Shown here piece after piece: positions 29,727 through 62,859 of a stretch of 64,000 nt of DNA. The position numbers and the translations under genes are program-made. Positions within the stretch are counted from its first letter, which is position 1. Each line of letters opens with the position of its first letter. The notes under the pieces were generated by a model. The model made no database searches. It was not told where the DNA came from and saw nothing but the letters and a program-made list of their open reading frames with translations. The DNA is from Sneathiella chungangensis (lineage in GTDB: Bacteria; Pseudomonadota; Alphaproteobacteria; Sneathiellales; Sneathiellaceae), in the NCBI RefSeq assembly GCF_009882935.1, contig NZ_WTVA01000004.1, forward strand, positions 245,117 through 309,116, read 5' to 3'.

Positions 29727-29772
29727 CTGGGGAGGTGGGAATGTCGAAGACGATCTGTGAGGAGAATGCATC

Positions 29773-37573: not shown

Positions 37574-37582
37574 GAGAAAACC

Positions 37583-38362: not shown

Positions 38363-38397
38363 ATTGAAGTGCGGGAAAAGATAATATCGTTCGTAAG

Positions 38398-41040: not shown

Positions 41041-41135
41041 ATTAGACGGCGCATATTGTTGTGAATTCATCATCTGTTGCTTGCCAGGGAGCCTCCTGTG
41101 AGCGGCTGCCTTCGCGACGGCCCTCACGTCTTCAA

Positions 41136-42299: not shown

Positions 42300-42331
42300 T
42301 TCGACGTCTTTCTTTTCCGGTTTCCTTGTTG

Positions 42332-43252: not shown

Positions 43253-43254
43253 AC

Positions 43255-45803: not shown

Positions 45804-45805
45804 GA

Positions 45806-46975: not shown

Positions 46976-47008
46976 TTTATTTCTCCAGATCCCGCATTTT
47001 CCACTCTA

Positions 47009-47833
47009 TTAAGTCTTCTTGCGCCAGTTTGAGCGCCCGAAGCCTGAGAAACTAAATGGCTGCTTATTAAGAAAACTGCTGACCGACGATTTATGGTCGT
47101 CGGTTCCGACGCAGGCGCCCTGAGCAAAGGCCTCCAATTCGATCATTGCGGCCTGATCCGTGTGGAATGACCGGTTGAGCAGCACTTTTGATAATCCAAT
47201 CGCGGTCATGGAGGCGCCTTGGAATTTTTGTGCAAGAGTCATCGCCGCGTCGTCAATCTCATCCTCCTCTACGATGTCGTAGACGATGCCATAGGATTTG
47301 GCTTCATCCGGTTTCAGGATGCAGGACGAAAAGACGATTTCTTTGGCACGTTGAAGCCCGACAATTCTTGGCAGCAGATAAAGCGCGGCTAGATCGGGGA
47401 TTAGACCCATGCGCGCAAACACCGAGCAGAACCGCGCATTTGGCGTCGCCAGGATAAAATCAGCTGCCAGGCTCAGACTGAAACCGGCCCCGAACGCGGG
47501 ACCATTGACGGCAGCAATAACCGGCATTTCCAAATTTACAAGATCGGAAAACCAAGTGTGGGCCTCAGCAATTCGATTGCGGATCATGGCCGTGGTTCTT
47601 GATATTGTCATTCCCTTGACATCACCGCCGGCCGAGAAGGCGTCACCCGCTCCTTTGATTATCAGCGCTCGCACATCCAGGTTTTTAGTATCAACCCCTT
47701 CGCGCAGCCGGCGTACTACGTCGGCAATTTCAACGCGGATATCATTATCGAGCGCATTTTTTACTTCCGGGCGGTTCAATGTGAGAACGGCTATTTTATC
47801 GGATATTTCAAACTGGATTGACGCGTATTTCAT
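47009..47833 (-). CDS. Enoyl-CoA hydratase/isomerase
   Basis: A 274-residue crotonase-fold enzyme: KGAGDAFSAGGDVKGM and VNGPAFGAGFSLSLAADFIL form the oxyanion hole and CoA pocket; ARMGLIPDLAALYLLPRIVG follows. The two usual hydratase Glu positions are not both evident (a Pro-Asp occurs in the second), so isomerase or another crotonase reaction is possible. Fourteen bases after the MaoC gene in the operon. Confidence 0.82.
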   Translation of the reverse strand: MKYASIQFEISDKIAVLTLNRPEVKNALDNDIRVEIADVVRRLREGVDTKNLDVRALIIKGAGDAFSAGGDVKGMTISRTTAMIRNRIAEAHTWFSDLVNLEMPVIAAVNGPAFGAGFSLSLAADFILATPNARFCSVFARMGLIPDLAALYLLPRIVGLQRAKEIVFSSCILKPDEAKSYGIVYDIVEEDEIDDAAMTLAQKFQGASMTAIGLSKVLLNRSFHTDQAAMIELEAFAQGACVGTDDHKSSVSSFLNKQPFSFSGFGRSNWRKKT

Positions 47834-47847
47834 TTATAACCATCCCC

Positions 47848-48702
47848 TCATGCAAATTTTGCGAAGCCATTGTCCAGGACCATCGCGTCGCGTTCCCGTA
47901 CCCATGCCCTGAACCGCGCCTCGTTATCCGAGCGCCAGATGTCCACAGAGATCGTTTCTCCTGGAAAGACGGGCTTCGTGAACCGGCATTCGAATTGCGA
48001 CAGGCGGGAAGCATCATAATCGCAGCATGCCTTGACGACAGCATGTGCCGCCATACCCCAGCTGCATAAACCATGAAGGATCGGCGCTGGAAACCCGGCT
48101 TGCGCCGCAACGGCAGGATCTGCATGAAGGGGGTTTCTGTCGGCGTTCAACCGATAGTAAAGCGCGGATTGGGGAGTTGACGGCAAGCCGACAACTATAT
48201 CCGGGGTGCGCTCTGGGGGCGTTTTCGGTTCGGCGGGTTTTCCCGGTTTTCCGCCGAATCCGCCATTTGCGCGACAGAATATAGTAGATGTCAGTTTGGC
48301 CAGGAGTTCGTTATTTTGATGATTAGCTATACTTCGCTCTATGACCACCAGTGCGCCGCGGCCTTCCCCTTTATCAATAACATCGACTATCTTGTCGCGG
48401 GCACGGATCGTGCCTTCCGCGGGGAGGGGGGAGAATATCGTAAGTCCCTGCTCACCGTGAACGACTTTTGTCCGATCAATGCCGGAGTTAGGATCCGCGG
48501 TTATTGGGGTGGAGGTGCCAAGGACGGCCGCCATGGTAGGAAAGCTGACCAGATTATTTTCATAGACATATTGAAGCTGATTAACGTCGGTAGGGATATA
48601 ACCTAGTCCGATGCTCAAGGCATAGAAAATCGAATTGTCTTTAGTATAGGTCTGAATCACGTCCTCGAAAGGCCAGTTCAATAATGTTTCTTGATTAATC
48701 AA
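47848..48702 (-). CDS. MaoC-family 2-enoyl-CoA hydratase (double hot-dog)
   Basis: A 284-residue (R)-specific enoyl-CoA hydratase like hydratase 2 of peroxisomal MFE-2. The N-terminal hot dog recognises the acyl tail (FYALSIGLGYIPTDVNQLQY); the C-terminal one carries the motif YRLNADRNPLHADPAVAAQA then PILHGLCSWG, with catalytic Asp and His. TTG start with a weak site. Pairs logically with the SDR dehydrogenase in the same operon. Confidence 0.85.
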   Translation of the reverse strand: MINQETLLNWPFEDVIQTYTKDNSIFYALSIGLGYIPTDVNQLQYVYENNLVSFPTMAAVLGTSTPITADPNSGIDRTKVVHGEQGLTIFSPLPAEGTIRARDKIVDVIDKGEGRGALVVIERSIANHQNNELLAKLTSTIFCRANGGFGGKPGKPAEPKTPPERTPDIVVGLPSTPQSALYYRLNADRNPLHADPAVAAQAGFPAPILHGLCSWGMAAHAVVKACCDYDASRLSQFECRFTKPVFPGETISVDIWRSDNEARFRAWVRERDAMVLDNGFAKFA

Positions 48703-48746
48703 TTTTCTTCATCCCGTTTATTAGTATTGTTGCTGGGCGGGGAGAT

Positions 48747-49904
48747 TTATTGCGATGGCATTTCCAAAACGGCCTTCGCAAGAATGTTCCGCTGAATTTC
48801 ATTGCTTCCGGCGTAAATTGTCCCGGGGCGGGAGAAAAAATAATACCCGAGCGGATCAATCGAGGCGTTGCCGAAATTGCTCGGCCCTAAATGAGGTCCT
48901 TGCTCGCCGGCCACCTCCAACATTAATTCCGTGACACGTTGATAGAGTTCGGATGATACTATTTTGAGGATCGACATTTCCGGTCCAAGAGAGCCGCCGT
49001 GTTTAAGCGCGTCTGCATATCGACGATAGGTTCCCACATGATCGTCAATATCCATCTTCAACTTTATGAAGTCATTGACGAATACGGGATCGTCAAAAAG
49101 ACCCTTTTCCCTCGCAAGCTCCTTAAGGCTGCCAAACGCTATCATCGCAAATTTAGGGCTGCCAATTGTCAGGCGTTCGAAACCAAGCAGGGTTTTCGCC
49201 ATCGTCCAGCCTTCGTTGATGTTACCGACAATGTTTTCCTTGGGAATTCGGACATCATCGAAAAACACTTCACAGAATTCTTCCTCACCACCCAAAGTCC
49301 GAATTGGCCGAACCGTAATTCCAGGCGTATCCATTCGGGCCAGAAGAAAACTGATGCCCTCCTGTTTTTTTGCAGTTGGGTCAGTGCGAACGAGCATGAA
49401 TATATCTGTCGCGTCCTGAGCGACCGTAGTCCAGATTTTCTGTCCGTTGACGACCCAGTGGTCCCCGTCCAGTATCGCTTTTGTACGCAACGAGGCGAGA
49501 TCGGATCCAGAACCAGGCTCGGAATAGCCCTGGCACCAGATGTCTTCGCAGGCCAGAATTCTTGGCAAATAATATTTCTTCTGGGCGTCTGATCCGAACC
49601 GGATAAGCAGCATGCCAATCATCACGATGCCCATATCGGGGGCCCTTGAAACACCAGCGGAATCGAAAATGTCATGGTAGGCTACCATCTTTTCGATATC
49701 GAGCCCCATGCCTCCGTGCTCAACCGGCCACGCCGGGGCGAGCCATCCTTTTTTCGAAAGTTTGAGCGTCCAGGGTTTGATTTCTTTCCATCTCACCCGA
49801 CGACCTTGATACCTGAGGCTGGCCGGACATTCCTTTTCGATGAAATTTCGCAGCATGTCGCGAAATTCTTCGTCCGGCATTGCGTTGTAATCTACTTCGG
49901 TCAT
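48747..49904 (-). CDS. Acyl-CoA dehydrogenase (pair member 1)
   Basis: A 385-residue FAD enzyme introducing a double bond into acyl-CoA. CQGYSEPGSGSDLASLRTKA and VNGQKIWTTVAQDATDIFML are the flavin and substrate blocks. Near the C-terminus RPGTIYAGSNEIQRNIL has A365 where MCAD-type enzymes have the catalytic Glu, so the base lies elsewhere, as in several steroid-type dehydrogenases. Its start overlaps the end of a second dehydrogenase gene, suggesting an alpha2beta2 heteromer. Confidence 0.85.
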   Translation of the reverse strand: MTEVDYNAMPDEEFRDMLRNFIEKECPASLRYQGRRVRWKEIKPWTLKLSKKGWLAPAWPVEHGGMGLDIEKMVAYHDIFDSAGVSRAPDMGIVMIGMLLIRFGSDAQKKYYLPRILACEDIWCQGYSEPGSGSDLASLRTKAILDGDHWVVNGQKIWTTVAQDATDIFMLVRTDPTAKKQEGISFLLARMDTPGITVRPIRTLGGEEEFCEVFFDDVRIPKENIVGNINEGWTMAKTLLGFERLTIGSPKFAMIAFGSLKELAREKGLFDDPVFVNDFIKLKMDIDDHVGTYRRYADALKHGGSLGPEMSILKIVSSELYQRVTELMLEVAGEQGPHLGPSNFGNASIDPLGYYFFSRPGTIYAGSNEIQRNILAKAVLEMPSQ

Positions 49905-51043
49905 GATTTGCCCTCACTGGAAATGAACAATTTCGCATAACGAGCGCGATGGGCCCGTGCGTTTCCAAGAAAAGTCGCCAGAACGATAGTTCGGTGAACA
50001 TATAGGCTGAGATCGTATTCATCGGTGTATCCGATCGCGCCATGGAACTGAATTCCCTGCTGGACGACGGATAGCCCGGCTTCGGAGCATCGCCATTTCG
50101 CCGCAGAAACAGTCATTGCACGGGCATTTGGGTCTGCTCCCGCCTCTATTGTCTCAACCGCCCGCCAAAGAGCCGTGCGCGCCAGTTCAATCTGAATATA
50201 GAGATCTACTGCCTTGTGTTGCAGGACCTGAAACGATCCGATTGACCGGCCGAACTGCTCGCGTTGCCGTAAATAGGTGAGGGACATATCCAGCACTTGC
50301 TGCATGTTTCCAAGCAACTCTGCACTTACCGCGACACGAGCGATATCTAATAGGTCGTCGAGCAGGGATGAGCCATGTTCTGGATCTGCAATAACAGACT
50401 CAGGGGGCACCGTCAGTCCGTCGAATGTCAGGTTTCCTTGGGACGTCCCGTCTGACAACGCTGCAGAATCAATTGAAACATGCGTCAGGTCGTCCAGAAA
50501 AAACAACAGGATGCCGTCTGAACTTCTGGCCGCGACGATATAGGCGTCCACACTATTAGCGAGGGGGACATATCGTGCGGTCCCGGAAATTTGCCAACCG
50601 CTGTCGCTGCGGACGGCGACGGGGCCGACATTGGTGGTATCAAGACCCGTGCTTTCCCCCAGCCATGCCAATGTAGCGGTCAGGTTTCCGGAGATTATTC
50701 CTGGCAATTTTTCTGTTCTAAGTCGGTCGTTATGGCCTAACGCGACCGCCCGTGCCGCCAGCAGGGCCGTGACGACCAGTGGTTCCCGAATTGAGGCCCG
50801 GCCGATTTCTTCATGTAATGCGGCGACTTCGCCAAGACACAGTCCTAATCCTGCGGCCTCTTCCGGAATCAACAACCCGGTCCATCCAAGCTCGGCCATC
50901 GACTTCCACCTGTCGCGAGAATATCCTTCAGATGCTTGTGAATTTTTTCTAATCGAATCTGGGGAAGCTTCTTTGCGGACGAAAAGTGCGACACTGTCCC
51001 GGAGTTGTCGTCGATCTTCGTTTTCAATTAATTTTTGATACAA
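49901..51043 (-). CDS. Acyl-CoA dehydrogenase (pair member 2)
   Basis: A 380-residue acyl-CoA dehydrogenase-fold protein, divergent in sequence. MAELGWTGLLIPEEAAGLGL, SGTARYVPLANSVDAYIVAA and REQFGRSIGSFQVLQHKAVD are visible; the C-terminal part (GAIGYTDEYDLSLYVHRTIV) lacks the usual EGT catalytic block. Likely the partner of the overlapping dehydrogenase, as in FadE28/29-type heteromers. TTG start just after GGGAGA. First gene of the nine-gene operon. Confidence 0.82.
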   Translation of the reverse strand: MYQKLIENEDRRQLRDSVALFVRKEASPDSIRKNSQASEGYSRDRWKSMAELGWTGLLIPEEAAGLGLCLGEVAALHEEIGRASIREPLVVTALLAARAVALGHNDRLRTEKLPGIISGNLTATLAWLGESTGLDTTNVGPVAVRSDSGWQISGTARYVPLANSVDAYIVAARSSDGILLFFLDDLTHVSIDSAALSDGTSQGNLTFDGLTVPPESVIADPEHGSSLLDDLLDIARVAVSAELLGNMQQVLDMSLTYLRQREQFGRSIGSFQVLQHKAVDLYIQIELARTALWRAVETIEAGADPNARAMTVSAAKWRCSEAGLSVVQQGIQFHGAIGYTDEYDLSLYVHRTIVLATFLGNARAHRARYAKLFISSEGKS

Positions 51044-51395: not shown

Positions 51396-51401
51396 TTGAA
51401 C

Positions 51402-52229
51402 TTGGCAAAGCCATTTAGAACAATGCTTGCTCTTCCGGGTCCTGCCGATGAAAAAATTGATAGGCAATTTATTACGGCGCTGGCCAGAGGGCTTGAAGTT
51501 CTGAGGGTGTTTGAGCCGGGTGAAAATTTCCTAGGAAATCAGGAAATAGCAGAACGGGCGAATTTACCCAAGCCAACGATTACGCGGATAACCCGGACGT
51601 TAACGATGCTCGGCTATCTGGAATATAACGGACGTTTGGAGAAATACTCGCTTGGTACCCCGGTACTTTCCCTTGGCTACGCCTGCCTGGCCAATCTTGG
51701 TGTGACACGTGCGGCCCGGCGGCATATGCAGGAGTTGGCGGATTTCGCCGGAGCTTCGGTAACCGTCGCAAGCCAAGACAGGCTGGACATGACCTATATC
51801 GAAATCGTTCATGGCGGTAGCGGCGGACATCTGCGGCTGGATGTCGGAGCCAGATTTCCTATTTGGCGCACAGCCATGGGAATGGCGTATTTGCATGCCT
51901 TGCCGCAAGACGAACGCGAATTCATGATTGAGCAGATAGAAAAGCAAATTCCCGAAGAAAGTGCAGACTTCCGCGATCGTCTTGATGACGCGTTTCAACA
52001 GTTGGATACTAAAGGTTATTATAGTACTTCTGGCATATTTGAGCGGGGGCTAAACGGGGCTGCGACGGCGATTGTGCTGCCAGATAGTGGTACTATCTAC
52101 AGTATTACGATCCTCGGTCCGGCGTATCAGCTGCCACACGATCGCATCGATGAAGAAATCGGTTATCGCCTGGTTTCAACGGCACGGAATATCGAGTCGG
52201 AACTCCATAACCGTCCATTGGCAATTTAG
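51402..52229 (+). CDS. IclR-family transcriptional regulator
   Basis: A 275-residue regulator: N-terminal winged helix (QFITALARGLEVLRVFEPGE, AERANLPKPTITRITRTLTM) and a C-terminal GAF-like effector domain (GARFPIWRTAMGMAYLHALP). TTG 51402 is chosen because GGAG (51391-51394) lies seven bases before it. It sits between two catabolic clusters and is divergent from one, convergent with the TRAP genes. IclR proteins of this PcaR/PobR-like kind sense aromatic or small carboxylic acids, so it may control either cluster. Confidence 0.85.
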   Translation: MAKPFRTMLALPGPADEKIDRQFITALARGLEVLRVFEPGENFLGNQEIAERANLPKPTITRITRTLTMLGYLEYNGRLEKYSLGTPVLSLGYACLANLGVTRAARRHMQELADFAGASVTVASQDRLDMTYIEIVHGGSGGHLRLDVGARFPIWRTAMGMAYLHALPQDEREFMIEQIEKQIPEESADFRDRLDDAFQQLDTKGYYSTSGIFERGLNGAATAIVLPDSGTIYSITILGPAYQLPHDRIDEEIGYRLVSTARNIESELHNRPLAI

Positions 52230-52330
52230 CCCCTTCCGCAATAATCAGGCTTGACGCCCGCCTTGTGAAGACGGACGTCCAGTTCAAACAAACTCCGGAT
52301 AGAAGGCTCCCCTGTTTTAGAGTAGCCCAG

Positions 52331-53617
52331 TTAATGCATATTGTTGGGAAGCCAAAGGGTCAGTGCGGGGAACAGCAGCAAAATTCCGATTGCAATTATA
52401 TGCGTCAGAACATGCGGCAACACGCCAATAAAAATTTCTCTGAGCGGCAGGCCTGAATATTTCGACACAATAAAGCAGTTCAGTCCCATCGGCGGCGTCA
52501 CCATGCCGAGCTCTGCTGAAATGATGACGATAACACCAAACCAAACCAGGTCAAACCCCAGCGCGTGAACGAGAGGCGCTGCGATAGGGACGGTAAGCAC
52601 CAATATGGCCAATTGGTCCATAACGCAGCCAAGGACAATATACAACAGAACTAATCCAAGGATCACCATCCATGGTTCAACGTCCAGCGTGCCAATAAAG
52701 GTTACGACATGCTGGGTTACGTTGGTAACCGCAAAAAACGTTGAAAAAATGTGAGCGCCTAAAACGATAACAGCAATCATGCAGGATGTCTTTACCGATC
52801 GGGAAATCACATCAAACGTCTCAGTTAACGTCCTTTTCTTTCGGGTAAAATAGAATACACCGGCGACAAATGCGCCAAAGGCTGACGCTTCTGTCGGTGT
52901 TGCGACGCCAAGATAGATCACGACTGTCACAGCAACAAACAAAACCAGCATCGGTCCAACCAAACGGGTGAGTTTGATTTTCTCCATAAAGGAAACTTTT
53001 ATCGGAATGGGGGCTCGTTTGGGATCCTGTATCGCGAGAAACATCGTAGTGACAATGATTGTGGTCATGACAACAATGCCGGGTATAACACCAGCGATAA
53101 GTAGCTGACCGACATTAACATCAGCGATTAGACCATAGATAACCATTGCCACACTGGGCGGAATAAGCATTGCCAAAGTGCCGGAAATCGCGACTACGCC
53201 GGCGGCCATTCTGGGTTCATACCCTCGTTCAATCATCGCCTTCAGAGAGGTCGATGACAAGGTGGCGGCAGACGCTGTTGAAGAACCGCAAATTGCTCCG
53301 AAAGCGGCGCCTGCAAAAGCCGTAGCGATCCCTAAGCCGCCTGGCAGTCGACCACACCAGGCAGATGCCGCAGTATATAAATCATCGGCGATGCCTGAGC
53401 GCAATACGAACTCCGCCATCAATAGAAACATTGGAATGACAACAAACATATAAACGGCGGCAGAATCATGCGGCGTTGACGAAAATATGGCTATTACAGC
53501 CGTCATACCGCCAACCATATACAAACCTAGCGCCCCGCTGATTGTCATTGCAAAACCAACGGGAGTTCCAAAAGCGAGCAGTGTAAATAACAGCACAATA
53601 ACGATAAAAGGAATCAT
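52331..53617 (-). CDS. dctM: TRAP transporter large permease (DctM)
   Basis: A 428-residue inner-membrane protein with about 12-13 helices; the TRAP large subunit that moves substrate with sodium. GAAFGAICGSSTASAATLSS and SGTLAMLIPPSVAMVIYGLI are family signatures, as is the ending MGLNCFIVSKYSGLPLREIF. Overlaps the DctQ gene by four bases. No anion of choice can be read from it. Confidence 0.88.
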   Translation of the reverse strand: MIPFIVIVLLFTLLAFGTPVGFAMTISGALGLYMVGGMTAVIAIFSSTPHDSAAVYMFVVIPMFLLMAEFVLRSGIADDLYTAASAWCGRLPGGLGIATAFAGAAFGAICGSSTASAATLSSTSLKAMIERGYEPRMAAGVVAISGTLAMLIPPSVAMVIYGLIADVNVGQLLIAGVIPGIVVMTTIIVTTMFLAIQDPKRAPIPIKVSFMEKIKLTRLVGPMLVLFVAVTVVIYLGVATPTEASAFGAFVAGVFYFTRKKRTLTETFDVISRSVKTSCMIAVIVLGAHIFSTFFAVTNVTQHVVTFIGTLDVEPWMVILGLVLLYIVLGCVMDQLAILVLTVPIAAPLVHALGFDLVWFGVIVIISAELGMVTPPMGLNCFIVSKYSGLPLREIFIGVLPHVLTHIIAIGILLLFPALTLWLPNNMH

Positions 53618-54180
53618 GTTGATTGCTCACCATCAAAAATAACTTCCGGGTCATTTCCTTTAGTTATCAACGCAATGACGTGGAGGGTAAGCCTGATAAT
53701 AAGCACACAGGTCCCCACAAATATAGGAACATATGATAGCCACACAGGCCAAGATATTATCCCTTCATAATGTTGATTTTGCACGAAAGTCTCAAAGATG
53801 CTTTTCCAGTTTGCGTAGGCGATCAATCCAAATGCAATAATCGATAGTAAGACCCAAGTAATATCAGCAATGAGACGCACGTTTTTGCTCATTCCAAAGC
53901 GGAAGAGATCTATCGATATATGCACGCCATCACGGAAAGTTGCTGATATTGCAAAATAAAAGCAAATTACAATCAGGTAATAAGTCGTAAGGTTATAAGC
54001 CCATGAAAGAGGAGAATTGAAAACATACCGGAGCAATGTATCCGCGCTAATAACCACAACCATGATTGCAACGCTGATACATGCAATTACCAGTAAGATC
54101 TGCTCTGAAATTTTAGTAATCCGGTTTAACATATCTCTATATGTCCTAAGGTAGGCTTGAAGCCGGGTTGAGCTAACCAT
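53614..54180 (-). CDS. dctQ: TRAP transporter small permease (DctQ)
   Basis: A 188-residue four-helix membrane protein of the TRAP small-subunit family (SADTLLRYVFNSPLSWAYNL with the conserved R.....P..W, then DGVHISIDLF). ATG 54132 (MLNRITKISEQ) is an alternative start since the first 16 residues are atypical and the ribosome site is weak for both. It bridges DctM and the periplasmic binding protein. Confidence 0.85.
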   Translation of the reverse strand: MVSSTRLQAYLRTYRDMLNRITKISEQILLVIACISVAIMVVVISADTLLRYVFNSPLSWAYNLTTYYLIVICFYFAISATFRDGVHISIDLFRFGMSKNVRLIADITWVLLSIIAFGLIAYANWKSIFETFVQNQHYEGIISWPVWLSYVPIFVGTCVLIIRLTLHVIALITKGNDPEVIFDGEQST

Positions 54181-54270
54181 TCTTATTCATATTGCTTCCA
54201 AATTGTGCCAAAGAGTAAACCAACTAATGAACAACGTTTGGATTAGGTGAGTTTACACACAGTTTAGTGC

Positions 54271-54301
54271 GCCATGGCCCTTATTCTTTTAGAGCCATGG
54301 C
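54271..54301 (-). promoter_or_regulatory. Intercistronic hairpin between dctP and dctQ
   Basis: GCCATGGC at 54271-54278 and again at 54294-54301 (each self-complementary) can form an 8-bp stem with a 15-nt loop, directly after the dctP stop. A hairpin here would keep dctP mRNA levels above those of dctQM, as the binding protein is needed in excess. Confidence 0.5.
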
Positions 54302-54321
54302 ACAACTTCGATAGCTAGTGC

Positions 54322-55344
54322 TCAGTTTCCTGAAGCTTTATAGGCTTCAAGCGTTTCCTTGCCCTTGCGGCCGGCGTCCTCCATTTTCTTTACCCAAATA
54401 TCCCAAACTCCAGAAACGCGGTCCTGCCAAATTTTTTGCTGCTCTTCGGTCAGGGTGACAACATTCATGCCCTCATCGATAACACGCTGACGGCTCTCGG
54501 TGTCGCGACGATCCTGATATTCACATAGAAAGCTTTGCGCCTTAGCGCCTTCTTCGGTGAATATATTTTTTGTTTCATCAGAAAGCGAGTTCCAGGCTTT
54601 GTCACTGATCACCCAAAGAATAATACCGGAACCAAGCTGACTGCCTTCAACCACGTGATCGAATAGTTCGTTAAGTTTATATCCAAACAAACCACTGTAA
54701 GGATATAAAGCTCCGTCGATTACTCCTCGTGTCAAAGCGTCGTATGTTTCAGGTGACGAAACTTTAATAGGTACAGCGCCAAGTGAGCGTGCGGTGTTGC
54801 TCATACCTTCACCATTGGCACGCAGCTTCAGGCCCTTTACGTCATCAATCGTTTCAATGGCCTTGTCGGTCGTGAAAATATTGTACGGTGGTAAACCACC
54901 CGCAAAAATCACTCTAAATCCTTGGACTTTATATTCGGCGTTGTCTAAAATACCGCCAGGTTTTGCGACGCCCCACATTTTTTCGGTAGACTCGCATGAA
55001 GAAGAAAACATACCTGGCAGCTCTGCAACTGAGCTTAGTGGAAATTTATCTGCATGATATGATGTTGAAATCATAGCCGCATCTGCTAATCCTGCCTTCA
55101 ACGCCGCAATATTATTGCCTAGTTGCCCGGCTGGATAGAGTTCCCATTGTATTTTCCCGTCCGTGCGTTCTGTGACAGCATCGGCAAATACTTTACCTCC
55201 GTTTTCCCACAGATAGTGATTTGCCGGGAATAGCCAGGCGACTTTTAGTGTTTTGGCTTCTTCCGCCATCGCCTGATAAGCGTTGGCGGCCGTTAGTGTG
55301 AAAGCGGCAAGAGCAACGGTCGCTAATTTTAAGCGCATATGCAT
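54322..55344 (-). CDS. dctP: TRAP transporter substrate-binding protein (DctP)
   Basis: A 340-residue periplasmic binding protein. Sec signal at residues 1-27 (LATVALAAFTLTAANA), then LKVAWLFPANHYLWENGGKV, IQWELYPAGQLGNNIAALKA and KLRANGEGMSNTARSLGAVP with the Arg that binds a carboxylate in DctP proteins. GGGGGAG precedes the ATG. Ligand is a carboxylate; the neighbouring genes make a C5-dicarboxylate such as itaconate attractive. Confidence 0.88.
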   Translation of the reverse strand: MHMRLKLATVALAAFTLTAANAYQAMAEEAKTLKVAWLFPANHYLWENGGKVFADAVTERTDGKIQWELYPAGQLGNNIAALKAGLADAAMISTSYHADKFPLSSVAELPGMFSSSCESTEKMWGVAKPGGILDNAEYKVQGFRVIFAGGLPPYNIFTTDKAIETIDDVKGLKLRANGEGMSNTARSLGAVPIKVSSPETYDALTRGVIDGALYPYSGLFGYKLNELFDHVVEGSQLGSGIILWVISDKAWNSLSDETKNIFTEEGAKAQSFLCEYQDRRDTESRQRVIDEGMNVVTLTEEQQKIWQDRVSGVWDIWVKKMEDAGRKGKETLEAYKASGN

Positions 55345-55711
55345 TTTATATTCTCCCCCTGTTTGTATTAATTGCTGGCGATGTTAATTGCGTCTGACTG
55401 ATTTGATACCGCTGAAAGCAGTTCTTGTCCTTCATCAATCTCTCGATTTCGCAAATTCTCAATAATTCATGAAGATCTAAAACATATTTTCATAACAGTA
55501 GTCCGTCAAGCAAAATTATAAACCGCACTGCAAAATTAATAATTGACTATGGCCGATTTCTCATCTTAGCTTGTCGTGCAACTTTGGGGTTGAGGGTTGA
55601 TCGCGACATCAGATGAATGCCGCGTGTTCGGTTGCTCCGTTTTGTCTAGCTGACCTGTATGTCCCTAAGATACTGAAATTAAATAAATAAATGTAAATAT
55701 GGATCTCTGTT
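55345..55711. promoter_or_regulatory. Divergent promoter region dctP / acyl-CoA dehydrogenase
   Basis: AT-rich 367 bp. GCAAAATTA is repeated at 55510-55518 and 55530-55538, 20 bp apart. The 19-mer at 55520-55538 shares 13 positions with 51283-51301 upstream of iclR, a possible shared regulator site. No clear -35/-10 pair beyond TTGACT near 55543. Confidence 0.4.
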
Positions 55712-56878
55712 ATGGAAAACACCCTAAGTGAACAACAGCTGGAAATCCGCGAGGCAGCGCTGAAATTATGCCGCCAGTTTGACTTGGATTACTGGCTTGA
55801 ACGAGATAGAGAGGGAGGATTCCCGGAAGAATTTTATCGGGCGGTCGCGGATGCCGGTTGGCTTGGCATTGCTATGCCTGAAGCCTATGGAGGTTCCGGT
55901 CTGGGGATTTCCGATGCAGCCGTCTTTTTACAGGCTGTGGCCGAATCCGGTGGCGCGGCTCAGGCATGTTCCGCAATTCATATGAACATTTTCGGCCTTC
56001 AACCCGTGGTCATCTTCGGATCTGAAGAGCAAAAGCAACGCATGCTCCCGCCGCTAATTAGAGGTGAGGTCAAGGCCTGTTTCGGTGTTACTGAGCCTGA
56101 TGCAGGCCTTAATACGACCAAGCTCAAAACGCGCGCTTTACGCGATGGAGATCGCTATGTCGTGAACGGAAAGAAGGTTTGGATTTCGACGGCGCAGGTC
56201 GCTGACAATATATTGCTTCTCGCCCGCACCACGCCCATCGAAGAATGCAGAAGCCCGACAGAAGGTTTGAGTATTTTTTATACGAAACTGGACCGGGACT
56301 ACGTAACGATCCGAGAAATAGACAAAATGGGTCGGAAGGGGGTTGATACCAATGAAATTTTCTTTGAAGACATGCCCATCCCGGCGGAAGACCTGATTGG
56401 CGAAGAAGGGCAGGGCTTTAAATACATCCTCCACGGAATGAATGCGGAACGGGTATTCGTCGCGGCTGAAGCCGTCGGCATAGCGCGCGCGGCAAATGAA
56501 CGCGCAATACAATACGCAAAAGACCGTGTCGTATTCGGTCGCCCGATCGGCATGAACCAGGGCATACAGCATCCGCTGGCGCAAAACTGGGCCAATCTGG
56601 AAGCCGCTAATCTTATGATGCTTCATGCGGCCAAGCTATATGACCAAGAATTGCCTTGCGGGTCCGAGGCGAACGCGGCGAAGCTGCTTGCGTCGCAAGC
56701 GGCTGTTGAAACCTGTAAAAATGCGATCCTGACGCATGGCGGATATGGCTATGCGAAAGAATACCACGTCGAACGGTTCCTCCGGGAAGTAATGATTCTT
56801 TATATCGCCCCCGTCAGTCCGCAACTCATTCTTTGTAACATCGCAGAGAAAAAGCTGGGTCTGCCGAAATCCTACTGA
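55712..56878 (+). CDS. Acyl-CoA dehydrogenase of the dicarboxylate cluster
   Basis: A 388-residue FAD acyl-CoA dehydrogenase: GIAMPEAYGGSGLGISDAAV, CFGVTEPDAGLNTTKLKTRA, VNGKKVWISTAQVADNILLL and ILTHGGYGYAKEYHVERFLR. At the C-terminal active-site block it has LYIAPVSPQLIL, so the usual EGT Glu is absent. A dehydrogenase of this kind stands in the Pseudomonas itaconate cluster too; its step there is not established. Opens the rightward operon. Confidence 0.82.
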   Translation: MENTLSEQQLEIREAALKLCRQFDLDYWLERDREGGFPEEFYRAVADAGWLGIAMPEAYGGSGLGISDAAVFLQAVAESGGAAQACSAIHMNIFGLQPVVIFGSEEQKQRMLPPLIRGEVKACFGVTEPDAGLNTTKLKTRALRDGDRYVVNGKKVWISTAQVADNILLLARTTPIEECRSPTEGLSIFYTKLDRDYVTIREIDKMGRKGVDTNEIFFEDMPIPAEDLIGEEGQGFKYILHGMNAERVFVAAEAVGIARAANERAIQYAKDRVVFGRPIGMNQGIQHPLAQNWANLEAANLMMLHAAKLYDQELPCGSEANAAKLLASQAAVETCKNAILTHGGYGYAKEYHVERFLREVMILYIAPVSPQLILCNIAEKKLGLPKSY

Positions 56879-56892
56879 GGGAGGGAACTAAA

Positions 56893-57768
56893 ATGAAGCC
56901 GGTAAGGTCGTTTCTCTTTGTTCCAGGCAACAAAGAATCGTGGATCGAAAAATCAGTAAAATCAGGCGCCGATGCCTTGATCCTTGACTTGGAAGATAGC
57001 GTTCCTTTCGAGGGAAAAGAAGAAGCCCGAAAAATCGTATCTAAAAAAATCGGTTGGCTCGCGGATCAAGGACAGCGTGTCTATGTCCGTATCAACCGCA
57101 GTCCGCATATGTATGACTTCGATGACCTGCTTGCCATCGTGCAAGACGGCCTTGAGGGAATTTTTATCTCAAAGCCGATCGGGCCGGAAGATGTCCATAG
57201 CGTCGACATGATGCTATCCGAAGCGGAAATGCGTTATGGCATGGAAATAGGGAAAACACGCGTCATTCCCTTACTTGAAACGGCGCGGGCCAGTCAAATG
57301 GCTTTCGAGATCGCGCAGCATCCGCGTGTTCCGGCAATTGTCGGCGCCACCGCGAAAAACGCCGATGTTGCCCGGGCGCTGGGATATCTGTGGTCGCCGG
57401 AAGGCACGGAAACACTCTATCTCAAGTCACGCGCGGTGATGGCGGCGCGGGCGGCAGGAAAACTTCCTATTGGCGGGGTCTGGCAACAGGTCGCTGATTT
57501 GGAGGGATTGCGAAAGGCCTCCAGGGCGGACCGGGCGCTTGGCATGAGTGGGGAACTCGTACTGCATCCTTCCAATGTAGCAATCGTCAACGAGAGCTAC
57601 AGCCCGACGGAAGAAGAGATCAACTACTACAAGGGAATGATCGACGCGCTTGAAAAGGCGCAGGAGCAAGGCCGTGCATCGGTGATCTACGATGGAGAGC
57701 ATATTGATATTGCGCATGTCAAAACGGCCAAGGAGATAATTGCTCTGTCCGAGATGTTGGAAAACTAA
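56893..57768 (+). CDS. CitE/HpcH-type lyase, probable citramalyl-CoA or malyl-CoA lyase
   Basis: A 291-residue Mg-dependent TIM-barrel C-C lyase. RSFLFVPGNKESWIEKSVKS, ALILDLEDSVP (Mg-binding acids), RVIPLLETARASQM and GMSGELVLHPSNVAIVNESY are CitE-like signatures. No citrate lyase alpha or gamma subunit is near, so it is a stand-alone CoA-ester lyase. With the MaoC and CoA-transferase genes it best fits (S)-citramalyl-CoA to acetyl-CoA plus pyruvate; beta-methylmalyl-CoA is the alternative. Confidence 0.82.
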   Translation: MKPVRSFLFVPGNKESWIEKSVKSGADALILDLEDSVPFEGKEEARKIVSKKIGWLADQGQRVYVRINRSPHMYDFDDLLAIVQDGLEGIFISKPIGPEDVHSVDMMLSEAEMRYGMEIGKTRVIPLLETARASQMAFEIAQHPRVPAIVGATAKNADVARALGYLWSPEGTETLYLKSRAVMAARAAGKLPIGGVWQQVADLEGLRKASRADRALGMSGELVLHPSNVAIVNESYSPTEEEINYYKGMIDALEKAQEQGRASVIYDGEHIDIAHVKTAKEIIALSEMLEN

Positions 57769-57800
57769 ACCAGTTAAAGAATAATAAGGAGAATTTGGAA

Positions 57801-58292
57801 ATGCCTGTAAATTATGAAGAACTTACCACCGGTAAATACTACGAAGAACTGGAACCGGGTAATGTCTACAAGCATTCGATCACCAGAACTGTAAGTGAGG
57901 CCGATAACCTGTTTTTCAGTGCGTTGACCTACAATTCCGCATGGCTTCATACAGACGAAGAATATTCGAAGACCACCATGTGGGGCACGCGCATTGTAAA
58001 CAGCATGTTTACCTTGGCGCTTGTTTGTGGCGTCGGGGTCAATGATGTGACTCTCGGTACAACTTTGGGCAATCTCGGATTTACGGAAATCAAATTTCCA
58101 AACCCTGTTTTTATTGGAGACACAATCCATGTCGAAACAGAGGTGATTGGCAGACGGGAATCCAAATCACGCCCTGATACCGGTATCGTCGAGTTTGAAA
58201 CAAGGGGCTACAATCAGCGCGACGAAGTCGTTGTTACATTGCGGCGGACGGGACTAATGCTGAAGCGCAGTTCGCGCTCTGACGCCAGCTAA
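57801..58292 (+). CDS. MaoC-family hydratase, probable itaconyl-/mesaconyl-CoA hydratase
   Basis: A 163-residue single hot-dog hydratase. FFSALTYNSAWLHTDEEYSK and TTMWGTRIVNSMFTLALVCG hold the catalytic His/Asp region; EIKFPNPVFIGDTIHVETEV follows. Start at ATG 57801, nine bases after AAGGAGA, not TTG 57795. It is shorter than the two-domain mesaconyl-CoA hydratases of the ethylmalonyl-CoA pathway. Adjacent to the CitE-like lyase, it should supply that enzyme's hydroxyacyl-CoA. Confidence 0.8.
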   Translation: MPVNYEELTTGKYYEELEPGNVYKHSITRTVSEADNLFFSALTYNSAWLHTDEEYSKTTMWGTRIVNSMFTLALVCGVGVNDVTLGTTLGNLGFTEIKFPNPVFIGDTIHVETEVIGRRESKSRPDTGIVEFETRGYNQRDEVVVTLRRTGLMLKRSSRSDAS

Positions 58293-58432
58293 CCATTCAG
58301 GCTGGCTCGCTGGCCAGGCCAATAATTTGGTGGATATCTTCGAATAAATACCGATTATTGCCTGGCTCGCGTCCGAACCAGCGGAGATTGTTGCTATAGA
58401 CATGAGAGTTAGCCTAGTGCGTGGAGATTGAT

Positions 58433-59704
58433 GTGAGCGAATACCAATCCATCAACAATTTGGACTTGGCAAAATATATTCAGTCCGGCGATACAATCGT
58501 TGTGGGGCAGGGCGTTGCCGAACCAATTGTACTCACGCAGGCGCTCATCGATCAACGCGACAATCTCGGTCAGGTAAATGTGTTTATCGGCCCCTTGTAC
58601 CAATCCCCTTTTTCGGCAGAACATGCCGATCACCTTAAATTCCTGACTTACTGCGGCGCGGGCACCAACAAGTCGATTATTGAGGCTGGCGCGGCGGAAG
58701 TTATCCTGGCAAATTATTCCGAATTGGCGCCGCTATTTGCCCGAGGGTCATTGCCAAGTGACGTCGTTTTTCTATTGCTCGGTGAGGCGCGAAATGGGCG
58801 CTATAATACCGGGTTGGTGAACGATTACATGATTGACGCCGCCCGACGCGCCCGTGTTGTCATCGCCGAAATAAGTGACCGGGTGCCCTGGACATGTGGC
58901 GCCGAGTTACCAGAGGACATAGTGCCCGACGTCATCGTCAGAACTTCCCGGGAACCTATTTCTCTCGGGTCTTCGGCGCCTACTGAAGACGATTTAAAGC
59001 TCGCTCGCAACGTCGCGGAATTTATCCCTGACGCCGCAACGATTGAGATCGGCATCGGGACCATACCGGATCTGGTTCTGGAGGCCCTTTCCGGGCATAA
59101 AAATTTGGCGCTTCACTCGGGTGTTATCGGCGATGTGGCCGTAGAATTGATTAAAAAGGGTGTGATTGACAATTCACTCAAACCGTTTGATCAGGGCGTT
59201 TCGATCGCGGGCTTCCTGCTCGGTACCCGAAAACTATTCGATTATGCTCATGAGAATCCTTCAATACGCCTTGCGCCCACGTCCCATACCCATGACATTC
59301 GTGTCCTATCTCGGTTGCAGAATTTTTACGCCGTGAATGCCGCCCTGGAAGTAGATTTAACAGGGCAGGTAAATGCCGAAGTAATCGGAAATCGTTACCT
59401 GGGTGCCGTTGGCGGTCAGGTTGACTTTTCACGGGGAGCTAATCTTTCGGAAGGCGGTCGCGCGATCATCGCGGTCTCCTCAACTGCGCGTGGCGGCTCT
59501 GTCAGCCGAATTGTTAATCGGATCGAGAGCGGAATCGTCACAACACCACGGGTGGATGTTGATATCATTGTTTCAGAGTGGGGTTCCGCTGAACTTCGAG
59601 GCACCACTCTCAAACAACGGGCCGAAAGATTATGTGCGATTGCCCACCCCAAATTTCGAGAGGGTCTCGAAAGAGAGGCCCATAAGATGTTTCAAACACT
59701 TTGA
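58433..59704 (+). CDS. Acetyl-CoA hydrolase/4-hydroxybutyrate CoA-transferase family (RipA-like)
   Basis: A 423-residue family I CoA-transferase. IEIGIGTIPDLVLEALSGHK binds CoA, LALHSGVIGDVAVELIKKGV follows and the catalytic Glu lies in AVNAALEVDLTGQVNAE; GGQVDFSRGANLSEGGRAII is typical. GTG 58433 is chosen, six bases after GGAG. In Yersinia the homologous RipA activates itaconate with CoA from an acyl-CoA donor, and RipB (MaoC) and RipC (CitE) are encoded with it as here. Confidence 0.8.
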   Translation: MSEYQSINNLDLAKYIQSGDTIVVGQGVAEPIVLTQALIDQRDNLGQVNVFIGPLYQSPFSAEHADHLKFLTYCGAGTNKSIIEAGAAEVILANYSELAPLFARGSLPSDVVFLLLGEARNGRYNTGLVNDYMIDAARRARVVIAEISDRVPWTCGAELPEDIVPDVIVRTSREPISLGSSAPTEDDLKLARNVAEFIPDAATIEIGIGTIPDLVLEALSGHKNLALHSGVIGDVAVELIKKGVIDNSLKPFDQGVSIAGFLLGTRKLFDYAHENPSIRLAPTSHTHDIRVLSRLQNFYAVNAALEVDLTGQVNAEVIGNRYLGAVGGQVDFSRGANLSEGGRAIIAVSSTARGGSVSRIVNRIESGIVTTPRVDVDIIVSEWGSAELRGTTLKQRAERLCAIAHPKFREGLEREAHKMFQTL

Positions 59705-59726
59705 AGAAAGTCCAGGGAGACGTAAA

Positions 59727-60905
59727 ATGAACGAAAAACCGCTAGCTGGAATTAGGGTGCTTGAACTGGGAGCATATATTTCTGCACCCTATGCTGGCTC
59801 CATTCTGTGTGCGCTGGGCGCGGAAGTCGTCAAAATCGAACCGGTCGATGTTGGCGAGGCGTTTCGACGCGGGGTCGATGATCAAAGTCCCTATTTCGTC
59901 CAGTATAACAGTGGCAAGAAAAGTCTCGCCCTGAATTTAAAGGACCCCAAGGGCGTAGAGATCGTGAAATCCATGTTGCCGGAATTCGATGTTGTCCTGG
60001 AAAACTATCGGGCCGGAAAAATGGCCTCCCTGGGGCTGGGAGCGGACGACTGCCGCGCCGTAAATCCTTCCATTATATATGCGTCTGTTTCCGGGTTCGG
60101 GAGCGGCGGGCCGCTTCGTGACCGGCCTGCATACGACTCGATCGGCCAAAGCATGGGCGGGTTATATTCAATTCTGAGTGACGCCGGGAACCCTCAATCC
60201 TCGGGAACCTGCCTTGCGGATATGACGACGGCCATCGGCACGGCAATGGGAATTATTGCGGCTCTTTTTGGTAGGGAGCGCGACCCGGAACGTCAGGGGA
60301 CAAATCTCGAAACCTCGATATTTGAAGCCGTTTCTCTTCTAACCGTCGATGCGGTAACGCAAATGCATGAATTGGGGGACGATCCGACACGCGGCAGCAG
60401 ACTGCCGCAGGGGCAGAGTTACTGCTTAAAAACTGCGAGTGGTGAGTCCATTACCCTCCATATGTCCTCCTCGCAAAAGTTCTGGAGATCGCTTACGGAA
60501 GCAATTGATTTGCCGGAGCTCGCGAATGATCCACTTTACTTAACCTATGACGATAGAATGGAAAATTTTTCGCAGCTTAAAAGTCTGCTTCAAAGCGAAT
60601 TTTCGAAATACACGCTGAATGAACTCGAAGAACGATTGGGCCGGTCGGATGTTCCTCATGCGCCTGTCCTGACGATATCTCAAATGGTTAGCAGTTCCCA
60701 GGCAAATTGGCTTCAGCTTTTCGACAAGCAGACAGATGATTTACCCTTAGTCCGGCTTCCCTGGCGCTTCGATGGCAAGCGCCCGACGCGATCAAATGCC
60801 GTGGCAAAGGTCGGCGAGCATTCGCGCGAAATTCTAGAAAATGTTATGGATGAAAAAGAACTCAACAACCTGTTTGAACGCGGCATTACCTCAACACCGC
60901 ATTAA
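59727..60905 (+). CDS. CaiB/BaiF family III CoA-transferase
   Basis: A 392-residue CoA-transferase: PLAGIRVLELGAYISAPYAG, VVKIEPVDVGEAFRRG and the catalytic Asp D165 in GTCLADMTTAIGTAM. The His of racemases is absent (RPAYDSIGQSMGG), so this one is a true transferase. A protein of this family serves as the itaconate CoA-transferase in Pseudomonas, so the cluster carries two unrelated candidates for the same step. ATG 59727 is preceded by AGGGAG. Confidence 0.84.
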   Translation: MNEKPLAGIRVLELGAYISAPYAGSILCALGAEVVKIEPVDVGEAFRRGVDDQSPYFVQYNSGKKSLALNLKDPKGVEIVKSMLPEFDVVLENYRAGKMASLGLGADDCRAVNPSIIYASVSGFGSGGPLRDRPAYDSIGQSMGGLYSILSDAGNPQSSGTCLADMTTAIGTAMGIIAALFGRERDPERQGTNLETSIFEAVSLLTVDAVTQMHELGDDPTRGSRLPQGQSYCLKTASGESITLHMSSSQKFWRSLTEAIDLPELANDPLYLTYDDRMENFSQLKSLLQSEFSKYTLNELEERLGRSDVPHAPVLTISQMVSSSQANWLQLFDKQTDDLPLVRLPWRFDGKRPTRSNAVAKVGEHSREILENVMDEKELNNLFERGITSTPH

Positions 60906-60937
60906 TTTCGATTTCAATAAGGAGAGATGAGGGCACC

Positions 60938-61933
60938 ATGGCGTTGGATGCAAAAATACGGGAATCGATTGTACTCCCCGCCGTTTGTGCGCCGATGTTT
61001 CTGGTTAGCGGTCCCGACTTGGTGCGCGAAGCGTGCAAGGCGGGCCTGATCGGAGCGTTGCCGCGCCAGAATGCGCGGACGGTTGAAGAATTCGAAGTCT
61101 GGTTAAGGGACATACGACGTGATCTTGAAGCTTATACGGCCCAAACACCCGACCGGATCGGGCCGATTGCCGTAAATCTGACGACGCGCATTCCAGAGAC
61201 TGAACTACCATTACTTCTGGATATCTGTAAGCGTTATGGAGTTGAGATTATCATAACAGTGGCAGGCGATCCGACAGCTTTGGCACGTCGCGCCCATGAC
61301 ATGGGTATGAAAGTCTTTCATGATGTTACGAATATACGCTTTGCTGAAAAGGCAATTGCCGCGGGTGTTGAAGGGTTGATTTGTATCGGTGCGGGCGGCG
61401 GAGGTCACTCCGGCACCATCAGCCATCTCACGTTAATTCGCAAAGTCCGGGCAATTTTTGAAGGAACGATCGTTCTAGCCGGAGCTGTTTCTGACGGAGC
61501 GACAATCCGGGCGGCCGAAATTCTCGGAGCGGATCTGGCTTATCTGGGCACCCGCTTTATCGCAACGCAGGAATCTATGGCTCCCGATGAATATAAACAG
61601 TTGCTTGTCTCTCAGACGTCGTCTGATCTGACCTATACAAGCAGGGTTGCGGGCGTGCCGGCAAATTGGATGAAAGAATCAATCCGCCGCAACGGCCTCG
61701 ATCCGGACAGCCTGCCTGAACCGCGGGGTAGAGGTATCGGGCATGACCATCTACCGGTTGGGGCTCAACCCTGGAAGACGATTTGGAGCGCGGGCCAGGG
61801 CATAGATCTCATAGAAGATATTCCGACCGTGGCAAATCTCGTAAGGCGCTTGCGGAGGGAATATGTCGCGGCCTGCGAGACGTCAGATATGTCTGATGCT
61901 GCGCGGTTGGTCGACGAGGTTTCCTCGTCTTAG
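60938..61933 (+). CDS. Nitronate monooxygenase-family flavoprotein (second copy)
   Basis: A 331-residue FMN TIM-barrel protein: LPAVCAPMFLVSGPDLVREA, CKAGLIGALPRQNARTVEEF, LICIGAGGGGHSGTISHL and LGADLAYLGTRFIATQES. Only distantly like the copy at 4.6 kb. In CoA-dependent clusters members may act as enoyl-CoA or acyl-CoA-handling enzymes rather than on nitronates. Thirty-two bases behind the CaiB gene, in the same operon. Confidence 0.8.
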   Translation: MALDAKIRESIVLPAVCAPMFLVSGPDLVREACKAGLIGALPRQNARTVEEFEVWLRDIRRDLEAYTAQTPDRIGPIAVNLTTRIPETELPLLLDICKRYGVEIIITVAGDPTALARRAHDMGMKVFHDVTNIRFAEKAIAAGVEGLICIGAGGGGHSGTISHLTLIRKVRAIFEGTIVLAGAVSDGATIRAAEILGADLAYLGTRFIATQESMAPDEYKQLLVSQTSSDLTYTSRVAGVPANWMKESIRRNGLDPDSLPEPRGRGIGHDHLPVGAQPWKTIWSAGQGIDLIEDIPTVANLVRRLRREYVAACETSDMSDAARLVDEVSSS

Positions 61934-62049
61934 ACCCGAAAGTGAAATTGCCATTTCTGCAACGCGACCAAATGACAATAACTGAATAGTCAAATATCGT
62001 ATTAACGATGTCATCGTCACGGTGACTTGATAGAAAAGAAAGAAAGCAA

Positions 62050-62859
62050 ATGACCGACCGCTACTCTGATTACAATAAGTTAAAGTTCGATTATCCCGCT
62101 GATCGTGTTTTGAGAATTACCTTTAATAAACCGGAAACTTACAATTCCGTGGATGCTGAAACGCATACTCAAATTACAGATGTGTGGCGAGACATCGACC
62201 GTGATCCGGATATCAATGCCGTTATCGTAACGGGGGAGGGGAAGGCATTTTCTGCGGGCGGTGACTTCGGGATGATCGAGAATATGACAGGCAATTTCAA
62301 TGAGATTATGAAAACCTGGAAGGAAGCCAAGGACCTTGTTTACAACATCATCAACTGCAATAAGCCCATTATTTCTGCCATCAATGGCCCGGCGGCCGGC
62401 GCCGGTCTGGTTGTCGGGATTCTTGCGGATATTTCTATTGCCGGAAAACGCGCCAGAATTGTCGATGGCCATCCCAGGCTGGGTGTTGCGGCAGGCGATG
62501 TGGCCGCAATCGTCTGGCCGCTCCTGTGCAGCATGGCGAAAGCCAAATATTACTTGCTGACCTGCAAAGCCGTTACAGGTGAGGAAGCTGAGCGTATAGG
62601 GCTGGTTTCTTTATGTGTTGAAGACGAAGAATTACAGAAAACGGCCTTAGAAATCGCAATGGACCTTGCCAATGGATCCCAAAGTGCGATCCGTTGGACA
62701 AAATATTCACTGAACAACTGGCTTCGTCAGGCAGGCCCAATCTTCGATGCATCGACAGCGCTTGAAATGCTTGGATTCATGGGAGATGACGTAAAGGAAG
62801 GCGTCGCGTCCCACCGCGAGAAACGCAAGCCTGAATTTCGGAAAGACTGCCCCCTTTAG
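62050..62859 (+). CDS. Enoyl-CoA hydratase/isomerase family protein
   Basis: A 269-residue crotonase-fold protein: [20 protein letters not shown] and [20 protein letters not shown] form the oxyanion hole; [20 protein letters not shown] follows. The standard catalytic Glu pair is not evident. It may process an acyl-CoA of the neighbouring dicarboxylate route or be independent; the gap to the previous gene is 116 bp. Confidence 0.82.

Follow-up and report, generated by a model that had tools for sequence, protein, structure and literature searches.

The 64,000 bp window analysed here (positions 245117–309116 of contig C15 in the 3.81 Mb, 15-contig genome of Sneathiella chungangensis) carries eleven genes at 51396–62859, each of them an open frame with a family match. 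An initial annotation had listed a TRAP transporter (dctPQM), an acyl-CoA dehydrogenase (ACAD), a CitE-like lyase, a MaoC hydratase, CoA-transferases, a nitronate-monooxygenase (NMO)-like flavoprotein and a crotonase, and all of these are indeed present. The transporter genes run leftward and the seven catabolic genes rightward, diverging from a 367 bp gap, and the regulatory gene lies beyond the TRAP genes and converges with dctM. Because the gaps between the seven plus-strand genes, measured from the chosen starts, are 14, 26, 128, 22, 32 and 116 bp, it is plausible that these genes form a single operon; promoter and terminator scans (25 sites for 16.6 expected, and 13 for 14.0 expected) were not used as evidence. 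With slightly less than even confidence we read the locus as a TRAP-fed operon for a substituted succinate of the methylsuccinate or mesaconate type, or for a larger acid that yields one. It would be a branched-diacid operon of known kind in which two components appear to stand out, namely the clade of its lyase and a CoA-transferase relative that has no nucleophile.

The transporter comprises the large permease DctM (52331..53617, minus strand; TIGR00786, 292 bits with a cut-off of 268), the small permease DctQ (53614..54180, minus strand), which overlaps dctM by 4 bp and has only a weak profile match (YiaM, 29 bits), and the solute-binding protein DctP (54322..55344, minus strand; Pfam DctP, 152 bits; NF037995, 127 bits with a cut-off of 50). 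The regulator belongs to the IclR family (51396..52229, plus strand; Pfam HTH_IclR and IclR_C above their cut-offs) and is called from a TTG start, so that its true start may lie further in.

The fourth catabolic gene (58421..59704, plus strand) encodes a protein with the family I CoA-transferase fold, assigned to the Cat1 subgroup by PDB matches and alignments; it matches 3eh7 at E 5e-73 with residues 11–424 of 427 aligned. Its best PDB matches are 4-hydroxybutyrate CoA-transferases (250 bits; 34–35% identity, 34.5% to 3eh7), ahead of 3qli and the 4n8-series chains (206–208 bits), which we take to be RipA. The nucleophile motif, H[ST]E in all five 4-hydroxybutyrate CoA-transferase chains, reads HSG in the window protein, where the glutamate position is occupied by Gly234 (codon GGT, 59120–59122). 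By the PDB scores the ‘RipA-type’ label of the initial annotation was a loose one. Glycine is found at this position in all 18 first homologs, two rows of which represent one locus. When 15 of these rows were aligned with the five PDB chains (one duplicate locus and two rows below 200 bits having been dropped), every Gly row had Arg145, Gly234, Thr290, His291 and Gly328, whereas positions 234, 291 and 328 of the transferase chains carry Glu, Asn and Ser. Two glycines of the loop (211 and 213) are conserved, as is the GG at 331–332. Decay of the gene was rejected as an explanation for the absent Glu, because the reading frame is unbroken and Gly was seen in all examined homologs of at least 40% identity. 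A structure predicted for the protein from a six-row alignment was poor (mean pLDDT 60).

Homologs of this protein were found at E 1e-50 in 55 of 385 same-class genomes, and the 29 new same-class loci divide into 23 with Gly and six with Glu, His291 accompanying Gly in 22 of the 23 and Asn accompanying Glu in all six. Among 49 aligned family rows (the 29 same-class matches with loci, the 15 earlier Gly rows and the five PDB chains) residues 234 and 291 are Gly/His in 37, Glu/Asn in 11 and Gly/Asn in one (L151), the sole exception to a pairing that holds in 48. A tree of these rows requires a single change at residue 234 and two changes at residue 291; the midpoint root adopted for drawing places the Glu rows inside the Gly rows and leaves the direction of the Glu/Gly change unsettled. 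Since Arg145 and Gly328 each hold in 28 of the 38 Gly rows of this wider set, the lasting signature of the branch is Gly234 with His291. Judged from these alignments, the Gly branch is diverse and kept, not decayed. Nine of its plasmid-borne genes that were opened are annotated as acetyl-CoA hydrolase/transferase, which is doubtful because the nucleophile is missing.

Two characterized proteins have glycine at the same place. ThnP, also of the Cat1 subgroup, is described as carrying out an assayed intramolecular CoA transfer within a dicarboxyl-CoA and as having an ACAD partner, its authors weighing a distant Glu269 against an internal anhydride as the mechanism (PMC11659651). IpdAB, with Gly57, is a ring-opening C–C hydrolase whose pathway also uses a FabK-like flavoprotein, IpdC, and a crotonase, EchA20; no CoA transfer was detected with the short acids tried (PMC5380842). 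In the open-licence literature, partly judged by title, ThnP and IpdAB are the only such cases that we found. The nucleophile is Glu249 in RipA (PMC3180442), and for known family I transferases this glutamate is reported to be essential or conserved (PMC3180442, PMC11659651). The window protein thus has the combination seen in ThnP, a Cat1 fold with Gly at the nucleophile position.

The lyase (56893..57768, plus strand; Pfam HpcH_HpaI, 118 bits) belongs to the CitE/CLYBL superfamily of CoA-ester lyases. Against the RipC/Ccl equivalog NF038242 it scores 105.8 bits where 375 are needed; however, the lyase of a Marinobacter five-gene cluster (MaoC, ACAD, MmgE/PrpD, CaiB and lyase) reaches only 151 bits with the same model, so that the miss speaks only against the Yersinia type, and we rejected it as evidence against itaconate when taken alone. 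A tree of 117 rows was built because this cut-off is a weak control for the Pseudomonas type. In it the window lyase falls inside a 31-row clade (support 100/100) with sequences from Burkholderia, Paraburkholderia, Paracoccus, Nitratireductor, actinobacteria, a few uncultured bacteria and a second cluster of the same genome, cluster B. The chain 8khl (P. aeruginosa, 99.6%), which we take to be citramalyl-CoA lyase (Ccl), belongs to a separate clade, starred in the tree (8khl, L117 and L116), with the Marinobacter and P. luteola lyases. The Mcl and human CLYBL references lie elsewhere, and another gene of this genome (L010) falls beside Mcl. To our knowledge, none of the enzymes in the 31-row clade has been assayed. 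The phylogenetic check proposed in the initial annotation therefore came out in between, the lyase being outside the Ccl clade yet inside the superfamily. It is 28% identical to the Marinobacter lyase, and its best PDB chains are malyl/β-methylmalyl-CoA lyases (117 and 109 bits). Within 24 genomes of the genus, matches at E 1e-60 are confined to the lyase itself and cluster B, with none in the 23 others, and at 1e-70 only its own genome is found among 385 of the same class (up to six candidates scored per genome); recent acquisition of the lyase is possible.

The MaoC-type hydratase (57795..58292, plus strand; 165 residues) has Asn47 and His52, present in 45 of 45 aligned rows, and passes the cut-off of the mesaconyl-CoA hydratase profile. 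It reaches 138.6 of the 340 bits required by the RipB/Ich equivalog NF038241, is matched by the Marinobacter Ich only at E 0.08 over 17 residues, and has β-methylmalyl-CoA dehydratase as its best PDB relative (92 bits). The CaiB-type, family III CoA-transferase (59727..60905, plus strand; assigned by family matches and alignment) lies in an open frame listed from 59403, in which the internal ATG at 59727 was chosen as start. Its Asp165, presumably the catalytic Asp to go by the family motif, is kept in 31 of 31 aligned rows, an alignment made up of rows other than PDB chains. The CaiB protein shares 49–51% identity with actinobacterial CaiB genes from loci of related lyases (L038–L041), and it is likely to be the real activating enzyme of the operon. 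Of the two CoA-TRANSFERASES in the operon, only CaiB keeps the conserved catalytic residue. The two unrelated CoA-transferases noticed side by side are therefore upheld as folds and not as two conventional active sites, and a pair of parallel itaconate activators becomes improbable because the supposed RipA-type protein is without a nucleophile.

The ACAD (55712..56878, plus strand), identified by its tree position and conserved residues, provides a further pointer to the substrate. In a midpoint-rooted tree of 75 rows it belongs to a clade of 45 rows (SH-aLRT 100) which includes the ACAD of the Marinobacter five-gene cluster, which on account of that cluster we take as a proxy for methylsuccinyl-C4-CoA dehydrogenase (Mcd). 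This clade splits into a 10-row part with the Marinobacter gene and a 35-row part with the window ACAD, the two proteins being 44% identical. Glu246, which we assume to occupy the catalytic base position of isovaleryl and long-chain ACADs, is kept in 45 of 45 clade rows, and a C-terminal site reads APVS in the window protein and APIS in that of Marinobacter where other rows have YEGT. The window ACAD thus appears to share the active-site layout of methylsuccinyl-C4-CoA dehydrogenases, of which the assayed Mcd of Cupriavidus necator and of P. aeruginosa oxidize both (RS)-methylsuccinyl-C4-CoA isomers (PMC12290011).

The neighbours of related lyases point the same way. MmgE/PrpD homologs occur at 9 of the 23 loci whose lyase falls in the window lyase's clade, compared with 4 of 57 other CitE loci in the same scan (Fisher p 0.001), a count over 80 loci of unequal length from which plasmid and same-genome loci were left out. 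MmgE/PrpD proteins are enzymes of substituted 1,4-diacids. These homologs are some 26–30% identical to the Marinobacter one; in the S. chungangensis genome a PF03972 search found a single copy, on contig C12, and none in the window cluster. A single stretch of the Paracoccus versutus plasmid pBEN (L111, 3145–15757) combines components of the Pseudomonas methylsuccinate set with components of the window-type set: an ACAD and a CaiB, with 66% and 46% identity to Mcd and Ict of Marinobacter, and an MmgE/PrpD gene (25%) adjoin window-type ACAD, lyase, CaiB and MaoC genes. TRAP genes stand beside a window-type lyase also in Rhodobacteraceae UBA6141 (L034). As the lyase has a clade of its own, the ACAD groups with methylsuccinyl-C4-CoA dehydrogenases and MmgE/PrpD genes are enriched near the lyase clade, a substituted succinate of the methylsuccinate or mesaconate type seems likelier as substrate than itaconate itself.

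The last two genes are less readily assigned to a step. The NMO/FabK-like flavoprotein (60938..61933, plus strand; Pfam NMO, 85 bits; FabK profile, 84 bits with a cut-off of 453) keeps the GGGHxG-type stretch seen in FabK. A gene 69% identical to it lies among many acyl-CoA genes on a Mycobacterium branderi plasmid (L126, 14001–14996). The crotonase (62050..62859, plus strand) is of the EchA15 type, PRK07327 subfamily (437 bits with a cut-off of 292), and matches 3qk8 with 320 bits; it has no Glu at two positions where typical rows do, which we take to be those of the classical hydratase glutamates. In the set of loci compared, the five crotonases nearest to it (57–66% identity) all come from loci with a lyase of the window lyase's clade (L007, L053, L111, L112 and L038).

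Comparable sets of genes recur elsewhere. In the same genome, cluster B (L007, 3742–18117; C15, about 179.7–194.1 kb) has its lyase 117 kb from the window lyase and 53% identical to it, and reads IclR, dctMQP, ACAD, CitE, MaoC, AMP-forming CoA ligase, CaiB, crotonase, two CaiB and SDR. A further related set in this genome, cluster C (L008, 3888–11468; ACAD, a FAD (flavin) hydroxylase, MaoC, CitE and, by eye, a PhyH-like gene), was set aside because its lyase falls in another clade; lyases scoring similarly to it are present in many genomes of the genus. From 15 match rows for the Gly protein, nine plasmid loci were inspected; eight of these have a CitE-type lyase no more than about 10 kb away, and six have a thiolase. 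Four relatives in the genus (L138–L141, with L139 and L141 truncated at the end of a contig) have CitE, Gly protein, crotonase, dctQM and NMO-like genes in that order. IclR lies upstream wherever the contig extends far enough, which it does in three of them; two have dctP and one has CaiB. AMP-forming ligases lie near L138, L140 (by eye) and L141, and an ACAD (41%) about 4.5 kb upstream in L138. Five same-class loci were extended (L173–L177), picked by neighbours or rank and not at random. Two of them, L173 and L174, read CaiB, ACAD, Gly protein, CaiB, MaoC, CitE and IclR, and L176 has dctP and IclR followed by ACAD, NMO, CitE, Gly protein, CaiB, crotonase and dctQM. The crotonases of L138–L141 and L176 are only 24–25% identical to that of the window. 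Gly-type Cat1 proteins directly adjoin MmgE/PrpD genes in L177 (8881–11663), L158, L164, L168 and L172. Since the kit recurs in varied make-up across loci, the window genes seem to belong together with no single partner being obligatory.

From gene content and order, conserved residues, phylogeny and this recurrence we infer the following reactions, their substrates and their order. DctPQM would import the diacid, and CaiB, with for example succinyl-CoA as donor, would attach CoA to one of the carboxyls. The Gly234 protein would then shift the CoA to the other carboxyl within that molecule, placing the ester where the enzymes that follow require it. The ACAD would then form a mesaconyl-type enoyl-CoA, to which MaoC would add water to give a citramalyl-type CoA, and the CitE-type lyase would release acetyl-CoA and a 2-oxo acid; the NMO-like protein and the crotonase would serve accessory steps. 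The internal anhydride of a succinate is a five-membered ring. In the CoA shift the free carboxylate of the substrate could stand in for the lost Glu, forming a short-lived cyclic anhydride of this succinic type that is re-opened by the CoA thiolate, with His291 as a candidate helper. A broader proposal, which we put forward as doubtful, is that the Gly/His Cat1 branch as a whole slides CoA between C1 and C4 of substituted succinyl-CoAs by way of the substrate's own carboxylate and a five-membered cyclic anhydride, as the family I counterpart of mesaconyl-CoA C1–C4 transferase inside TRAP-fed diacid operons.

Several observations weigh against these proposals. The window lyase lies outside every reference clade; cluster B does without a Gly protein and has an AMP-forming CoA ligase in its place; and the compact relatives L138–L141 have no ACAD or MaoC in the run, nor CaiB there in three of them, which could mean that the Gly protein is itself the activating enzyme. 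In the extended loci, no lyase was seen in L175 (CaiB, ACAD and Gly protein), and no lyase, ACAD or CaiB in L177, where the Gly protein stands beside MmgE/PrpD. Residue 209 of the window protein (59045–59047), which is part of the QxGhG loop, is Glu, whereas Gln stands there in 32 of 38 Gly rows and in all 11 Glu rows; this Glu209 is common to five other Gly rows and to no Glu row, and may bring a carboxylate near the active site. ThnP's alternative Glu269 has no counterpart in the window protein, nor a general one in the branch, as the residue 31 places after Gly234, by count, is Phe265 and Glu stands there in one of 38 Gly rows. Were the jobs of the two proteins alike, this absence would favour an internal anhydride, unless Glu209 serves. 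ThnP, compared here by description, may also have lost or lacked its Glu separately, as it is 46% identical to a Porphyromonas transferase (PMC11659651) and the window protein 34.5% to 3eh7. The open direction of the Glu/Gly change, together with Glu209, weakens the case for the anhydride slide.

The same observations bear on other explanations. That the Gly234 protein is an ordinary intermolecular CoA-transferase working by another mechanism (Glu209, His291 or a substrate carboxylate), and hence that the operon has two activators, would fit the conserved loop glycines, the Glu209 rows and the compact relatives without CaiB, but the essential or conserved status of the glutamate in known family I transferases (PMC3180442, PMC11659651) makes it rather unlikely. 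The set could instead resemble the Ipd system, the Gly234 protein being a retro-Claisen C–C hydrolase of a β-ketoacyl-CoA that acts with the FabK-like flavoprotein and the crotonase while ACAD, MaoC and CitE degrade the product. Such a role finds some backing in what is described for IpdAB, namely its glycine, its partners and the lack of transfer with the short acids tried (PMC5380842), in the thiolase and lyase genes of the plasmid Gly loci and in the resemblance of the window neighbours at 35.6–51 kb to β-oxidation genes. There is, however, no thiolase among the eleven genes, and the Gly234 protein sits in the Cat1 subgroup like ThnP and not in the two-subunit glutaconate/IpdAB branch. For EchA15-type crotonases we know of no ring-opening activity. 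We regard the hydrolase as unlikely, and rate CoA shifting above it because of the Cat1 subgroup, the diacid neighbours and the ACAD's kinship with an enzyme of the C4 ester.

The two remaining alternatives concern the substrate. Mesaconyl-C1-CoA could be hydrated to β-methylmalyl-CoA and cleaved to propionyl-CoA and glyoxylate, as the best PDB matches of the lyase and of MaoC would allow; this is very improbable given an ACAD related to a C4-specific enzyme and a lyase that does not group with the Mcl references, where another gene of the genome does. The initial annotation favoured itaconate, with CoA transfer by both transferase types, hydration of itaconyl-CoA and cleavage of citramalyl-CoA. 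The parts list fits such a route, the RipB_Ich and RipC_Ccl matches are significant though below cut-off, and in P. aeruginosa the cluster includes ACAD, Ict, Ich and Ccl, with a transporter next to it (PMC9875883). Yet the lyase is outside the Ccl clade, both Rip cut-offs are missed (106 of 375 and 139 of 340 bits, the former counting only against the Yersinia type), the Marinobacter Ich gives no meaningful match, the nucleophile that RipA has is absent, and no ACAD is required for itaconate. On the lyase clade, the Rip cut-offs, the missing Glu and the needless ACAD we rejected itaconate as the only reading, and as the route here it is improbable. What holds of the earlier proposal is its wider part: a branched C5-type diacid route is likely from the transporter, the CaiB Asp, the ACAD clade, the mesaconyl-CoA hydratase profile and the CitE-superfamily lyase, in keeping with mesaconate or methylsuccinate, which it had named as alternatives.

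Set beside known systems, the proposed substituted-succinate operon comes close to the ich-mcd-msi-ict-ccl cluster of Pseudomonas and Cupriavidus in its CaiB-type transferase, same-clade ACAD, MaoC-family hydratase, CitE-superfamily lyase and (as in P. aeruginosa) transporter, but differs in the clade of the lyase, the type of hydratase and the lack of an MmgE/PrpD isomerase, and adds the Gly234 protein, the NMO-like protein and the crotonase. With the Yersinia-type ripABC it has in common a Cat1-fold protein, a short MaoC and a CitE-type lyase; it differs in missing the RipB and RipC cut-offs, in having Gly at the place of RipA Glu249 and in adding ACAD, CaiB and TRAP genes. ThnP, from anaerobic naphthalene degradation, is similar in subgroup, glycine, dicarboxyl-CoA pathway and ACAD partner, although pathway and organism are others. 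IpdAB, from steroid ring C/D degradation, shares the glycine in a CoA-transferase fold and the company of a FabK-like flavoprotein and a crotonase, but that crotonase is of another type and IpdAB is of the two-subunit glutaconate-type branch, unlike the single-chain window protein. Mct is described as catalysing the same kind of reaction as proposed here for the Gly protein (PMC9196870), though it is a family III enzyme with an active-site Asp and another fold.

If the Gly/His branch does shift CoA inside diacids, or cleaves C–C bonds, catabolic clusters in which it occurs will have to be reinterpreted, and the open mechanism of ThnP becomes testable on a second family, an informative one because nearly all of the branch has neither the Glu nor a Glu269 substitute. 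Substituted succinates, and not itaconate alone, would then be indicated as substrates of bacteria.

Elsewhere in the window, 35603–51043 holds an adjoining acyl-CoA catabolic set, identified partly by eye, with AMP-ligases, SDRs, a CaiB, an ADP-forming CoA ligase, a DUF35-like and thiolase-like pair, a crotonase, an MFE-2-type MaoC and two ACADs. Among the SDRs, the one at 40213 shares 61% identity with the gene that ends cluster B, some 92 kb distant. By eye, 26066–31807 carries cbb3-type oxidase-like and NO-related-looking genes. At another locus (L011, 6886–9138) a 750-residue frame appears, again by eye, to join an ABC ATPase to another domain unrelated to it.

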